NCBI GenBank assembly: GCA_014983025.1
Contig: JADCLP010000003.1
Location: forward strand, 1-64,000
Direction: 5' to 3'
Source of the DNA: Erythrobacteraceae bacterium E2-1 Yellow Sea
Lineage (GTDB): Bacteria > Pseudomonadota > Alphaproteobacteria > Sphingomonadales > Sphingomonadaceae
Length of the DNA: 64,000 bases
A model generated the notes under the pieces. The model saw only the letters and a list, made by a program, of their open reading frames with translations. It was not told the origin of the DNA and ran no database searches. The position numbers and the translations under genes were made by a program. Positions 40,848 through 45,164 of this stretch are shown in pieces (positions within the stretch are counted from its first letter, which is position 1; each line of letters begins with the position of its first letter).

Positions 40848-40913
40848 GGTCAAGTGTCCTTTCAACTATGGAAAGGGTGCTTGTCATTGATTCGTCCACA
40901 TGTCAAGTACACT
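40848..40913 (-). promoter_or_regulatory. Candidate operator pair for the XRE cassette, one copy interrupted by IS1595
   Basis: On the plus strand, 40848-40865 reads GGTCAAGTGTCCTTTCAA and the pre-insertion sequence at 40901 reads TGTCAAGTACACTTTCCA once the insertion element and one copy of its 8-base target duplication are removed. They share GTCAAGT..(N)CTTTC with 13 of 18 positions alike by eye. The second block is also a near palindrome (AAGTACACTT). Short XRE regulators often bind such sites. The IS1595 element splits the distal block after its ACT, changing its right half. Confidence 0.45.
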
Positions 40914-40935
40914 GGACATTATATACTTGACGTAG
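40914..40935. repeat. Left terminal inverted repeat of the IS1595 element
   Basis: 22 bases, identical in inverse orientation to 42777-42798. The outward-facing strand contains TATATAAT, a -10-like sequence that could drive transcription out of the element into the XRE cassette, although no good -35 is seen. Confidence 0.92.
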
Positions 40936-40945
40936 GGACTACGAA

Positions 40946-41149
40946 ATGCAGGATGATAAGCGACAGGCCGATGCTCGATTTGAAATCGTGATTACACCGG
41001 TGATGGTGGAAGCAGGCGTTGCTAGTCTTGAATGTAGTGAATGCTGCTCTTTGGAGCAGCAGGCCATTGAGGCATTTCAAGCGATGGCGATGGCATCCCC
41101 AGAAATTCTCGAACTTCTCCGTCGTCGAAGCCTAGCCGTTCAGAAATAG
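40946..41149 (+). CDS. Small passenger protein of the IS1595 element
   Basis: 67 residues, ATG 40946 after the possible ribosome-binding site AGGGAC. The stretch RFEIVITPVMVEAGVASL (11-28) resembles the start of small alphaproteobacterial proteins of the type VTPEMIEAGV, followed by QAIEAFQAMAMASPEILELL, as in those proteins. Function is unknown. It begins 10 bases inside the left inverted repeat, and its last 128 bases lie antisense to the end of the HEPN-like gene. Both frames look protein-like, so a genuine convergent overlap is possible. Confidence 0.5.
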   Translation: MQDDKRQADARFEIVITPVMVEAGVASLECSECCSLEQQAIEAFQAMAMASPEILELLRRRSLAVQK

Positions 41150-41612
41150 CGCGCCCGTATTCGTGGAGGCTTCGCACTTGATCTTTGAACTCAACGATTT
41201 TCTCAGTCGGTAAGGGATCATTTGTCGTCCTAAGTCGGCCTCGCCCCTTTGTAACCATGATACGACCGGACAGTGGTCGAACCATATTCTCGTCTGGTGC
41301 GCCTACATCAAATGCGCGCAGTCCATGAACATATAAGTTTCTGTATTCCCCAAGGCGCTGATAGCCAGCGCAGAAATGTTCTACGTGTGGACGAATAGGA
41401 TGGTCTTCCATACCTCGCGCGGCAGAGCGCAGTGCTTCTGCCAGTGATCGACTACCAAGGTCAGCCACCAGAGCGTGCATGGCGGTATGTCCGCCAAGAA
41501 TTCCAGATAACATCCACCGCGTGTGCTCTTCCGTCAGGTTCCAGAACATTATTGCCCAGGTGAACTCTCGTCCAAATTCTGTTAGGTCGTAGGTATAAGG
41601 ATCTTCGACCAT
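41022..41612 (-). CDS. HEPN-motif passenger protein of the IS1595 element
   Basis: 196 residues from ATG 41612 (MVEDPYTYDLTEFGREFTWAI); the frame is open to a GTG at 41747, and another ATG lies at 41657. The mainly helical sequence contains GEYRNLYVHGLRAFD, i.e. R-x4-H in YRNLYVH, the HEPN signature of RNA-cleaving toxins and sensors, and NLTEEHTRWMLSGILGGHTAMHALVADL upstream, as in helical HEPN bundles. The gene follows the transposase on the same strand (stop 41815) and belongs to the element. It could be a defence- or addiction-type cargo. That is inference from one motif. Confidence 0.55.
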   Translation of the reverse strand: MVEDPYTYDLTEFGREFTWAIMFWNLTEEHTRWMLSGILGGHTAMHALVADLGSRSLAEALRSAARGMEDHPIRPHVEHFCAGYQRLGEYRNLYVHGLRAFDVGAPDENMVRPLSGRIMVTKGRGRLRTTNDPLPTEKIVEFKDQVRSLHEYGRAISERLGFDDGEVREFLGMPSPSLEMPQWPAAPKSSIHYIQD

Positions 41613-41814
41613 GTCAGAAACCAACCACAGAAAAATGAATATTGTGCTCCGCCGCATGCTGAGCACACCGCCTAAGCCGCATGATTCCGAGAAAGAGTCA
41701 AGCGAGCCTCGGCGGCGGGGCAGACCAATTGGCGGCGGCAGCCGCACCAGTCAGACCTGCGATCAAAGATAACGCTTGCGCCTCTCACCGATACGACGAG
41801 GCGGTTGCCAGCGA

Positions 41815-42747
41815 TCAGGCGGCGAGTGAACCAACCCGCCGGTAGGTGAGGCGCTTGCCCACTATCCCACGCAGGGCAATGTCCGTGCGTTCTGCATCCT
41901 CGATGCCAAGTGCGGAACGATTGGAATAGCGAAAATCGAATTCATGCAGGTAACGCTGCAAATGGCGCTGGTCGCAGTGCTGATAGACGCCGCGCATACC
42001 TCGTTTGAAGATGCCAAAGAAGCCCTCAATGGTGTTGGTGTGCACCGTTGGATCAATGCGGCTCACATATTCATCTTGCGCGTGGTTCACGCTGCGATGC
42101 GCTGCAAAATCCAGCCCTGGGCGCTTGTAATGGTGCGCCTGATCGGTGAGCAGTCTGCTCGCGCGATCCACATTCATAAACAGATAGGCACCGATATTGG
42201 CTGCGCTCAATTCGGGCGTAAAAACAATACTTGTAGCGCGCCCCGTAACACGATCCACAAGGGACACGATTTTGTTCATGTTGCGGATCGGAGTGCGGCT
42301 TCTTGGAGCTTGCTTATTCCTGCCCCAATAGGTTTCATCAGCTTCGACATCATGGCCGGAACCGCCTAATGGATCGGGATCATTGGGTTTCATTGCCTCT
42401 CGGATGCGGTGGCACATGAACCACGCTGTTTTGTAGGTGACACCCAGCATACGCTCGATCTGTTTGGCGCTCATACCCTTCTTTGACGAGCACAACAGGT
42501 AGGTGGCCAGCAGCCATTTATTGAGTGGCACCTTCGAGCGTTCGAACACTGTACCCACGCTGACTGTGAAGTTCTTCGAACAAGCATTACACTGGACAAG
42601 CCCCGCCCGATGCGATTTGCCTTGCAGGCGGCAAACGCGCTCTACCTCGCCGCAATGAGGGCAAACAGGACCATTGGGCCAGTTGAGTGCCTCAAGATGT
42701 TCGCGGGCCTTTTCGACGTCGGTGAAAATTGGGTCGGTAAGTTTCAT
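41815..42747 (-). CDS. tnp: IS1595-family (ISXO2-like) transposase
   Basis: 310 residues. An N-terminal zinc ribbon (CPHCGEVERVCRL and CNACSKNFTVSVGTVFERSKVPL) is followed by a helix-turn-helix (MSAKQIERMLGVTYKTAWFMCHRIREAM) and the DDE-type catalytic domain: GHDVEADETYWGRN (first Asp), RLLTDQAHHYK (second Asp), and HTNTIEGFFGIFKRGMRGVYQHC (His/Asn-Glu region of the ISXO2 type). The frame is intact from ATG 42747, close to the right inverted repeat. It should catalyse cut-and-paste or replicative transposition using the 22-bp ends. Confidence 0.95.
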   Translation of the reverse strand: MKLTDPIFTDVEKAREHLEALNWPNGPVCPHCGEVERVCRLQGKSHRAGLVQCNACSKNFTVSVGTVFERSKVPLNKWLLATYLLCSSKKGMSAKQIERMLGVTYKTAWFMCHRIREAMKPNDPDPLGGSGHDVEADETYWGRNKQAPRSRTPIRNMNKIVSLVDRVTGRATSIVFTPELSAANIGAYLFMNVDRASRLLTDQAHHYKRPGLDFAAHRSVNHAQDEYVSRIDPTVHTNTIEGFFGIFKRGMRGVYQHCDQRHLQRYLHEFDFRYSNRSALGIEDAERTDIALRGIVGKRLTYRRVGSLAA

Positions 42748-42776
42748 GATGCAGCACAGCTACATCTAGTGCGTTA

Positions 42777-42798
42777 CTACGTCAAGTATATAATGTCC
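42777..42798. repeat. Right terminal inverted repeat of the IS1595 element
   Basis: 22 bases, exact reverse complement of 40914-40935, followed by the second copy of the target duplication AGTACACT (42799-42806). Confidence 0.92.
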
Positions 42799-42912
42799 AG
42801 TACACTTTCCAAAATGGAGCGTGACCTTTCCCATTTGGCTCGAAAGTGCATGGGCCTTGCCGCGGAGTTTCATCAACCAAAGCGGGATCGGGAGGCCCAT
42901 GCGATTAGGGTA

Positions 42913-42941
42913 ATGACATCGCAAGACCTCGCGCCTATACG
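42913..42941 (+). promoter_or_regulatory. Candidate promoter of the thrS leader transcript
   Basis: ATGACA (42913-42918) matches the -35 consensus at 5 of 6 bases. After a 17-base spacer TATACG (42936-42941) matches the -10 at 4 of 6. The predicted start of transcription falls at 42948-42949, exactly on the ATG of the leader peptide, which would make the message leaderless. The promoter lies entirely downstream of the IS1595 insertion. Confidence 0.5.
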
Positions 42942-42948
42942 GCGGGGC

Positions 42949-43020
42949 ATGGCCCTGAAGCTGATCACCACGACAACAACTACCACCTCGGATATCCGGG
43001 GGCGGTCGGTCGTGCGCTAG
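42949..43020 (+). CDS. Threonine-rich leader peptide upstream of thrS
   Basis: 23 codons: MALKLITTTTTTTSDI..., ending in Arg and TAG at 43018. Seven threonine codons in a row (ACC ACG ACA ACA ACT ACC ACC, 42967-42987) use all four synonymous codons, which argues for selection on the amino acid, not a DNA repeat. The pattern is like thrL of enterobacteria, but the next gene is threonyl-tRNA synthetase. The promoter spacing predicts a leaderless AUG, as in the Sinorhizobium trp leader. The leader stop lies in the loop of a predicted antiterminator (43001-43009 with 43024-43034), and a terminator-like hairpin follows. It would let charged tRNA-Thr levels tune thrS. Confidence 0.72.
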   Translation: MALKLITTTTTTTSDIRGRSVVR

Positions 43021-43061
43021 CAGCCGATCCCGCCACCCGGTTTCGGGTGGCTGGCGTTTCC
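43001..43061 (+). promoter_or_regulatory. Candidate attenuator of thrS: alternative antiterminator and terminator hairpins
   Basis: Terminator-like hairpin: 43032-43039 (GCCACCCG) with 43044-43051, loop GTTT, extendable by two pairs past one bulged T, then GCGTTTCC. Antiterminator: 43001-43009 (GGCGGTCGG) pairs with 43024-43034 (CCGATCCCGCC) with a 2-base bulge, using bases 43032-43034 of the terminator stem, so the two are mutually exclusive. A third small stem (42986-42991 with 42996-43001) lies at the end of the Thr run. The T tract is weak (TTT), so termination may be partial or need factors. Confidence 0.55.
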
Positions 43062-43145
43062 ACCGAAATCGAATTTTCTGACAAACGCCGCTTCAAGCGC
43101 GCGCCGTGCTGTGCCATGGGCGCATGAAACGAACGGACGAGATTG

Positions 43146-45164
43146 ATGACGGAACTGCTCAAGATCAGCCTGCCCGATGGTACGGTGCGTGAAATGGAAC
43201 CCGGCAGCACGCCCGCCGATGTGGCGGCAGCAATCGGCCCGGGTCTGGCCAAGGCAGCAATTGCTGCGCGTGTAAATGGTGAGCTGCGCGATCTGACCCG
43301 GCCTTTTGAGGGCGATGCCGAACTGGCCTTGGTCACCAGCAGGGACGAGGCAGAGGCGCTGGAACTGGCCCGCCATGATTACGCCCATGTGCTGGCAGAG
43401 GCGGTGCAGGCATTGTGGCCAGGCACGCAGATCACCTTTGGTCCGGCAACCGATGACGGCTTTTATTATGATGTGAAGGCGCCTGACAGCCGCGACCCGT
43501 TTGGCATGGACGATCTTCCGGCCATCGAGGACAAGATGCGCGAAATTATCCGCGCTGACAAACCGCTGGTGCGTGAGGCATGGTCACGCCAGCAGCTGAT
43601 TGAGAAATGGCAGGCCGAAGGTGAAACCTTCAAGGCGGAATGGGCACAGGAATTGCCCGAGGGTGAGGAGTTGACTGTTTATTGGTCAGGCAACCCCAAT
43701 GAAGCGGGTTCATGGCTGGATATGTGTCGCGGGCCGCATCTGCCCAGCACGGGCAGGCTGGACCCTGATGCTTTCAAGCTGATGCGTGTCGCCGGTGCCT
43801 ATTGGCGCGGCGACCAGAAGAATGCGCAGCTCACGCGCATCTATGGCACGGGCTGGCTGAACAAGAAGCAGCTCAATGCGCATCTGACGCGGCTGGAAGA
43901 GGCGGCCAAGCGTGACCATCGCAAGCTGGGGCGCGAGATGGATCTGTTCCATCTGCAGGAAGAGGCACATGGCTCTGTTTTCTGGCACCCCAATGGCTAC
44001 AAGATCTGGCGCGAGCTGGAGGCCTATATGCGCCGCAAGATGGATGGCGCCGGCTATCAGGAGGTCAAGACGCCGCAGGTGATGGATGCCCGCCAGTGGG
44101 AACAGTCTGGTCACTGGGGCAAATACCGCGAAAACATGTTCGTCATCCCGGACGAAGTGCCGAACACGGAAGATGAAGGCCCGGTGATTTCGGGCAAGGC
44201 AGACTGGATGGCGCTGAAGCCGATGAACTGCCCGGCCCATGTGTTGATCTTCAAACAGGGAATAACCTCTTACCGTGACCTTCCGATCCGGCTAGGTGAA
44301 ATGGGCTGCTGCCACCGCAATGAACCGCATGGCGCACTGCATGGGCTGATGCGCGTGCGCCAGTTCACGCAGGATGATGCGCATATTTTCTGCACCGAAA
44401 AACAGGTGGTGGAAGAAGTGCGGTCCTTCATCGAGCTGGCCGATAGCGTTTATAAGGATTTTGGTTTTACCTATGCCATCAAGCTGGCGCTGCGGCCTGA
44501 CCAGCGATTTGGTTCGGACGCGGATTGGGACAAGGCCGAACAGGAAATGCGCGATGCCGTGGCCGAAGCGGGCATGGCGAATGATGATTATGGCTGGGAA
44601 GAACTGCCCGGCGAAGGTGCCTTCTACGCGCCCAAGCTGGAATGGCATTTGACGGACGCGATTGGGCGGACATGGCAGGTCGGCACGATCCAGGGGGATC
44701 GTGTGCTGCCCGAACGGCTGGATGCCAGCTATATTGGTGAAGATGGCGACCGCCATCGCCCGGTCATGCTGCACCGCGCGATCTTCGGCAGCTATGAGCG
44801 CTTTATCGGCATTTTGATCGAACATTTTGCCGGTCGCCTGCCGGTATGGCTCGCCCCGGTGCAGGCCGTGGTCGCCCCGATTGTGTCCGATGTGGATGGC
44901 TATGCCAATGAAGTGGCGGCGAAGCTGGAGGCAGCGGGCATTCGCGTCGACACCGATCTTCGCAATGAAAAGATCAATTACAAGATCCGCGAACACTCAC
45001 TGGCCAAGGTCCCGCATATTCTGGTGGTGGGCAAGCGTGAGGCGGAAGAAGGCAGCGTGGCCGTGCGCACGCTGGGCGAACAGCATCAGAAGATGATGAG
45101 CCTGGACGAGGCGATTGCCATGCTGACAGACGCAGCGACCCCGCCGGATCTGCGCCGCAAATAA
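43146..45164 (+). CDS. thrS: Threonyl-tRNA synthetase
   Basis: 672 residues from ATG 43146; a TTG at 43143 directly before is also in frame. The N-terminal TGS domain ([44 protein letters not shown]), the editing domain with [15 protein letters not shown], and the class II core with [18 protein letters not shown]-like [35 protein letters not shown] and [32 protein letters not shown] are all intact. The C-terminal anticodon domain ends in LDEAIAML. It charges tRNA-Thr. A Thr-codon leader with alternative hairpins precedes it (42949-43061), so expression is probably controlled by threonine supply. Confidence 0.98.

Follow-up and report, generated by a model that had tools for sequence, protein, structure and literature searches.

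The thrS gene in the window (the whole 64,000-nt stretch of DNA analysed) is preceded by a short threonine-rich reading frame and a conserved set of competing RNA helices. Together these probably form a threonine-sensing, ribosome-mediated leader switch, which would raise thrS expression when charged Thr-tRNA is short (probability roughly 0.7). Comparing related sequences establishes both the Thr leader and its alternative RNA folds, and from these we infer the order of events in the switch. The sequence-only reading had proposed a leader-peptide attenuator at this site. A conserved, probably leaderless Thr ORF and mutually exclusive, covarying hairpins bear out that part of it. The conventional terminator did not stand, and two downstream helices were left unaccounted for. 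The leader, its promoter and its target gene are located as follows.

42913–42918, + strand: −35 box of promoter P1, ATGACA; TG at positions 2–3 of the best-scoring box in 79/79 distinct leader loci
42936–42941, + strand: −10 box of promoter P1, TATACG; best-scoring box begins TA in 79/79
42949–43020, + strand: Thr leader ORF, 23 codons and stop, probably leaderless; ORF reading, related ORF in 84/170 family loci
42967–42987, + strand: seven consecutive Thr codons; conserved codon pattern, no other stretch of six ACN codons genome-wide
43146–45164, + strand: thrS, threonyl-tRNA synthetase; TIGR00418, 640.8 bits, 2.4e-192

Threonine codons in the leader ORF

The leader ORF starts with ATG at 42949, has the codons MALKLITTTTTTTSDIRGRSVVR, and ends with a TAG stop at 43018–43020, 125 nt before the start of thrS. 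The downstream gene encodes the Pfam domains TGS, tRNA_SAD, tRNA-synt_2b and HGTP_anticodon. Re-reading of the ORF confirmed the claim of a 23-codon frame with seven consecutive Thr codons of four types and a stop at 43018. In order, the Thr codons are ACC ACG ACA ACA ACT ACC ACC, which uses all four synonyms. A search of both strands of the 2.5 Mb genome for six successive ACN codons gave two overlapping matches at the leader and none elsewhere.

The comparison covered 170 family loci, each with at most 500 nt of sequence 5' of thrS. They comprise 30 from a family search, 80 named loci and 60 fetched stretches, sets whose genomes may overlap. The sequence-only reading had staked itself on a Thr-rich frame being conserved upstream of thrS in relatives. 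Such an ORF was found in 84/170 loci (79 distinct and 5 duplicates). The set of 79 was reached by removing the 5 exact duplicates and six chance or weak ORFs, namely L014, L041, L051, L063 (by hand), L111 and L136.

Over the 79 loci the Thr codons are ACC (324), ACT (117), ACG (106) and ACA (29). Within the final four codons, A and C are kept at positions 1 and 2 in 75–79/79 loci and position 3 is variable. This pattern marks selection for threonine rather than for a DNA repeat. The leader peptide also contains a conserved Arg-Gly-Arg motif, whose third codon positions are conserved as well (46–55/57), as expected if RNA segment 2, described below, lies over them. The N-terminus and the final residues of the peptide drift among loci, as judged by eye.

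Predicted promoters P1 and P2

A −35/−10 pair had been read as making transcription begin at the leader ATG. In the window the P1 boxes are separated by a 17-nt spacer, and the −10 box lies 7 nt from the leader ATG. The layout is conserved, with a spacer of 17 in 75/79 distinct loci and a gap of 6–8 nt in 76/79, counts that are optimistic because the boxes were picked by best score; the median score was reached by 0.8% of random anchors. A Shine-Dalgarno (SD)-like motif precedes the leader ATG in 2/79 loci. Because the promoter position fits and the SD is missing, P1 RNA probably starts on the leader ATG, which would make the leader ORF leaderless, in keeping with the earlier proposal.

A second promoter, P2, is probable between helix C (see below) and thrS.

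43091–43117, + strand: probable proximal promoter P2, CTT at 43091 and TGCCAT at 43112, 21 nt apart, proposed from the fixed distance

Of 79 leader loci searched, 77 have the TGCCAT-like motif, and in 65 of these it lies at the 21-nt distance from CTT. Of 86 loci searched that carry no leader, 59 have the motif, 14 of them at this distance. P2 would provide basal thrS expression. Given P2, the attenuator may govern only part of thrS expression and could be a minor input.

An IS1595-family element with 31-nt inverted repeats (94%) occupies 40905–42807 of the window and ends about 105 bp before the P1 −35 box. It contains two ORFs.

41815–42747, − strand: IS1595-family transposase
41022–41747, − strand: passenger ORF, with no Pfam or NCBIfam match

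Alternative RNA helices

The RNA between the Thr run and thrS contains five segments and a further helix, C.

42986–42991, + strand: segment 1, overlaps the last Thr codon and pairs with 42996–43001; 1:2 z −4.8, which stands out less than it appears (see text)
42996–43005, + strand: segment 2, over the Arg-Gly-Arg codons, pairs with segment 1 or 3; covariation, codon conservation
43030–43040, + strand: segment 3, antiterminator partner of segment 2 and terminator-like partner of segment 4; z −6.6 and −5.5
43044–43051, + strand: segment 4, closes the 3:4 hairpin; pairing counts in the alignment
43038–43046, + strand: CGGTTTCGG, 5' arm of the alternative helix 4:5, pairs with 43063–43071; z −12.3
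43063–43071, + strand: segment 5 (CCGAAATCG); helix 4:5 covariation
43053–43059, + strand: GGCGTTT, 5' arm of helix C, which encloses segment 5; z −11.6
43083–43089, + strand: 3' arm of helix C, AAACGCC; covariation, possible H-type pseudoknot with 4:5

An arm-swap test was used to ask whether helix arms fit their own partner better than arms exchanged between loci. Two loci were left out of a 77-row alignment, L044 for a deletion and L077 for an insertion; L140 was also left out for the arm-swap test (76 loci). Alignment A1 (69 loci) excluded L140 and loci more than 88% identical to a chosen one. Arm-swap z values were −4.8 for 1:2, −6.6 for 2:3, −5.5 for 3:4, −12.3 for 4:5 and −11.6 for C, the first of which stands out less than it appears, since z lay between −2.3 and +1.4 for unrelated arm pairs and was −3.1 for segment 5 with the thrS SD. 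The arms El and Cl against the same SD gave 0.3 and −0.5.

Helices 4:5 and C are the best supported of the set by these comparisons. In 4:5, both sides have changed in at least one locus for 7/9 pairs. In helix C, UA replaces CG in 22/69 loci at one pair and in 15/52 at another. On A1, the fold 1:2 + 3:4 + C had 88.7% of cells paired and a covariation score of 0.196, while versions slid along the alignment had 44.1 to 53.1% and 0.049 to 0.099. The fold 2:3 + 4:5 + C had 90.8% of cells paired, with 14/23 pairs changed on both sides, and 4:5 + C alone scored 0.282 for covariation against at most 0.111 in slid versions. Cells paired and covariation score exceeded all 500 shuffles and every slid version. 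For 1:2 + 3:4 + C, further pair types were the same as in shuffles (224/500), and its number of pairs changed on both sides was reached by 11/500 shuffles. RNAalifold on a gappy MAFFT alignment returned little other than 3:4.

These results bear on the two hairpins of the sequence-only reading. Its 3:4 hairpin (43032–43039/43044–43051) is exact in the window and covaries. The antiterminator it quoted is possible, but the conserved one is 42996–43005 with 43030–43040, a helix of 10 bp with one bulge. The compensatory pairs it called for in relatives were found, as 1:2, 2:3 and 3:4 covary in the arm-swap test and on A1. Helix 1:2 over the last Thr codons, 4:5, C and the probable promoter P2 were absent from its model.

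Segment 4, the left arm of C, segment 5 and the right arm of C follow one another along the RNA in H-type pseudoknot order. Helices 4:5 and C could therefore form such a pseudoknot, a geometry suggested by the order of the arms. The full 2:3 and 4:5 helices share three bases, and one must yield at its end. Spacing to the ORF is also conserved. The last Thr codon is 10 codons from the stop in 53/69 loci, and segment 3 begins 8–12 nt 3' of the leader stop in 63/69. In L077, a palindromic insertion of about 90 bases lies within helix C between the leader and thrS; the leader and 3:4 are intact.

The 3:4 hairpin and folding energies

A U tract, scored as at least five T in the next 10 nt, follows 3:4 in 0/69 aligned loci, the window included. 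At least five T follow segment 5 in 9/69 loci and C in 3/69. The conventional terminator is thus not supported in 69/69 loci, and two more conserved helices lie downstream, outside the model in which it was claimed; to list a weak T tract as a mere caveat was an understatement. Without a U tract behind 3:4, termination would probably be Rho-dependent or otherwise non-canonical.

Single-sequence folding was uninformative: the window leader has an ordinary minimum free energy (z −1.2; a second single-sequence fold, z −0.3). With segment 1 removed, the minimum free energy structure contains 2:3 in 31/69 loci and 3:4 in 24/69. With segment 1 masked and no pseudoknot energy counted, 2:3 + 4:5 was better than 3:4 + C in only 4/69. 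Nested energy models thus gave no sign that the starved state is favoured.

Among the features that mark an attenuator, the leader has a predicted short ORF rich in cognate codons upstream of its target (84/170 loci, with a coding pattern), spacing that lets a stalled and a terminating ribosome mask different segments (53/69 and 63/69), and mutually exclusive antiterminator and terminator-like hairpins (covariation of 1:2, 2:3 and 3:4). An intrinsic terminator with a U tract was found in 0/69 loci. Because it lacks this defining feature of the classical type, the element was classed as a variant attenuator that would work like a classical one.

Distribution of the leader in the family

Besides the 84 loci, a covariance model located the leader further upstream in five more (L005, L026, L051, L059 and L111). 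It was undetected in 81/170 family loci, for three of which the sequence before thrS is shorter than 400 nt. Among the genera with the leader are Erythrobacter, Porphyrobacter, Qipengyuania, Altererythrobacter, Tsuneonella and Croceicoccus, together with part of Novosphingobium. The loci of Sphingopyxis flava, three Stakelama, one Sphingorhabdus and Sphingomonas soli yielded no leader. Covariance model R1 matched 68/246 genomes of the order, with one match each, and 4/385 genomes of the class, all within the leader family, in searches whose strict filters lose weak matches. In the 20/68 genomes shared with the family search, 20/20 matches lie upstream of thrS (19 close by; G059 at 575 nt).

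Two other patterns were seen at loci that carry no leader. An IF3-like motif lies 3' of thrS in 5/80 named loci (L074, L092, L093, L097 and L105). Repeated motifs resembling TGTCAAG-N-CTTTNCA lie upstream of thrS in L022, L094, L108, L139 and L166, as judged by eye.

In L005, L026, L051 and L059 the leader is followed by an inserted ORF and then by thrS. L026 is identical to L059 over the compared stretch; L051 is Aurantiacibacter sp. D1-12 and L059 is Alteriqipengyuania abyssalis. The inserted ORF is at 1455–1961 in L051, and begins at about 1424 in L059, about 4060 (− strand) in L005 and about 924 in L026. In L111 the leader is at a similar distance from thrS. The inserted ORF of L051 resembles RNase AS, at 25.6 bits where the NCBIfam cut-off is 200, and matches solved 3'-5' exoribonucleases at E 5e-5. 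By eye, the inserted-ORF loci keep the 4:5 and C arms with new compensating bases, and lack the CTT..TGCCAT element after C. A CTTGCC..GGCATA pair stands directly in front of thrS in L005. Retention of 4:5 and C where no CTT..TGCCAT element follows C ties the helices to the leader and not to P2.

Threonine leaders in other alphaproteobacterial families

thrS was present in 120/124 genomes, and the upstream DNA of 109 was scanned, one of them belonging to the leader family. In the remaining 108 regions (68 + 40), all from other alphaproteobacteria, the Thr-ORF scan gave 3 + 3 hits, against a background of 7/345 in letter shuffles of the first set and 0/40 on the reverse strands of the second. 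The three hits in the second set (40 class loci) were weak and none was convincing. The three candidates were L224 (family f72), L222 (f73) and L231 (f58).

In f72, 8/10 thrS loci have a Thr leader, and in seven of these (L224, L274, L276, L277 and L279–L281) the leader is of the leaderless type and is followed by a hairpin and six T, a T6 terminator. In f73 (L222 and L351–L379), an ORF ending Thr-x-Arg-Thr-stop precedes thrS in 28/30 loci, with a similar leaderless-type promoter whose spacer is 17 in 28/28. An obvious U tract was not seen by eye in f73. In many f73 loci, also by eye, CCGAAC at the end of the ORF could pair with a GTTCGG that directly precedes thrS. The Thr-rich ORF of L231 was set aside as chance or private, a comparable ORF being present in 0/29 relatives examined, and weak hits in its relatives L282 and L289 were judged to be chance.

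Proposed mechanism

P1 would start the RNA on the leader ATG, and a ribosome would load on the leaderless message. Judging from known ribosome size, a ribosome stalled at the end of the Thr run would sit over segment 1, with segment 2 left free, and a ribosome at the stop would overlap segment 2 in part. If Thr-tRNA is sufficient, translation would continue to the stop, segment 2 would be covered, at least in part, and the 3:4 + C form would arise. Most P1 transcripts would then stop short of thrS. Under a shortage of Thr-tRNA, the ribosome would stall on the Thr run and mask segment 1, leaving segment 2 to pair with segment 3. Segment 4, thereby freed, would pair with segment 5, possibly in a pseudoknot with C, and transcription would enter thrS.

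The output may be Rho, U-less termination or translation. A fuller version, possible but doubtful in our view, is that ribosome position toggles a U-less 3:4 + C form against an antiterminator-pseudoknot of 2:3 + 4:5/C that would shield the message from Rho, and that leaderless Thr leaders are a recurrent alphaproteobacterial control of thrS with a lineage-specific output device.

Alternative explanations

The same sensor could have another output, in which the stall alters the 4:5/C fold and so affects translation of the downstream gene or message stability rather than termination. The missing U tract after 3:4 fits this idea. So do L005, L026, L051 and L059, where about 11–12 nt separate the end of helix C from the ATG of the inserted ORF and the 3' arm lies beside that ORF's ribosome binding site (RBS), as judged by eye. 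PMC1262725 describes a comparable arrangement in the LEU element, which joins a leader peptide to a pseudoknot at the leuA RBS. In the window, however, 56 nt lie between helix C and thrS, and pairing of the arms with the thrS SD is not convincing (El:SD 0.3, Cl:SD −0.5, segment 5:SD −3.1). In family f72, moreover, the corresponding position is occupied by a canonical terminator. We consider an output other than termination unlikely.

Control could also lie with the synthetase itself, if the TTGTGCCATGG hairpin before the thrS SD were an anticodon-arm mimic bound by ThrRS and the leader were secondary. The arms of this hairpin covary weakly (E, z −4.1), and the element is retained in some relatives that have no leader. 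Its loop varies, however, and variants such as TTTCTGCC and TTGCCTTAAGG do not keep the GU of the Thr anticodon that an operator loop beside the SD would conserve (by eye). The fixed 21-nt distance to CTT (65/77) suits a promoter better. The hairpin was rejected as a tRNA anticodon mimic on account of its loop and spacing, and ThrRS autoregulation is very improbable. Scarcely credible is a functional small protein made from the leader ORF, with a Thr run that has no regulatory role. The conserved frame and its Arg-Gly-Arg motif would suit a protein, but conservation of the third positions is what RNA segment 2 predicts, and the drifting N-terminus and last residues argue against it. The ribosome-mediated Thr switch is preferred.

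Comparison with known systems

The enterobacterial thr and trp leader-peptide attenuators consist of an ORF with cognate codons and overlapping 1:2, 2:3 and 3:4 segments. The Sinorhizobium trp leader is leaderless and has a terminator with a U tract. The thrS leader resembles it in a predicted RNA start on the leader ATG and in belonging to an alphaproteobacterium, and differs in amino acid and target. The enterobacterial pheST leader-peptide attenuator, named in PMC1262725, shows a tRNA synthetase as a possible target. With thr, trp and pheST the thrS leader shares the cognate-codon ORF, the overlapping 1:2, 2:3 and 3:4 segments and a stop next to segment 3. Unlike them, it has no U-tract terminator, a leaderless ORF, the extra conserved helices 4:5 and C, and thrS as its target.

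Actinobacterial systems, as described in PMC1262725, offer further parallels. The LEU element of leuA has a cognate-codon leader peptide, a conserved pseudoknot and an alternative hairpin, and its Leu run pairs with the SD. The thrS leader has the peptide, the alternative hairpin and possibly the pseudoknot, whereas the arms El, Cl and segment 5, which do not include the Thr run, show no convincing SD pairing. The same paper (PMC1262725) gives tRNA synthetases as targets of the trpS and leuS attenuators, reports no conserved terminator hairpins for mycobacterial cys leaders, and proposes Rho for leaders that lack obvious terminators. The thrS leader is like trpS and leuS in its synthetase target and like the cys leaders in having no obvious terminator; its codons and phylum are different. 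By joining a probably leaderless ORF to a conserved alternative fold that lacks an intrinsic terminator, the element raises the question of how leader peptides act without a U tract.

Gram-positive thrS is under T-box control, which senses a shortage of charged tRNA-Thr, and in E. coli ThrRS binds a mimic of the anticodon arm near the thrS SD, a translational operator. The leader described here serves the same gene as the T-box and would respond to the same signal, but no Rfam family matched 42900–43200 at E up to 5. The T-box covariance model did not match, and at the Rfam gathering score the whole window holds only a tRNA. With neither a T-box nor an E. coli-type operator recognised here, the leader would, if our reading is correct, show how some alphaproteobacteria sense a shortage of charged Thr-tRNA.
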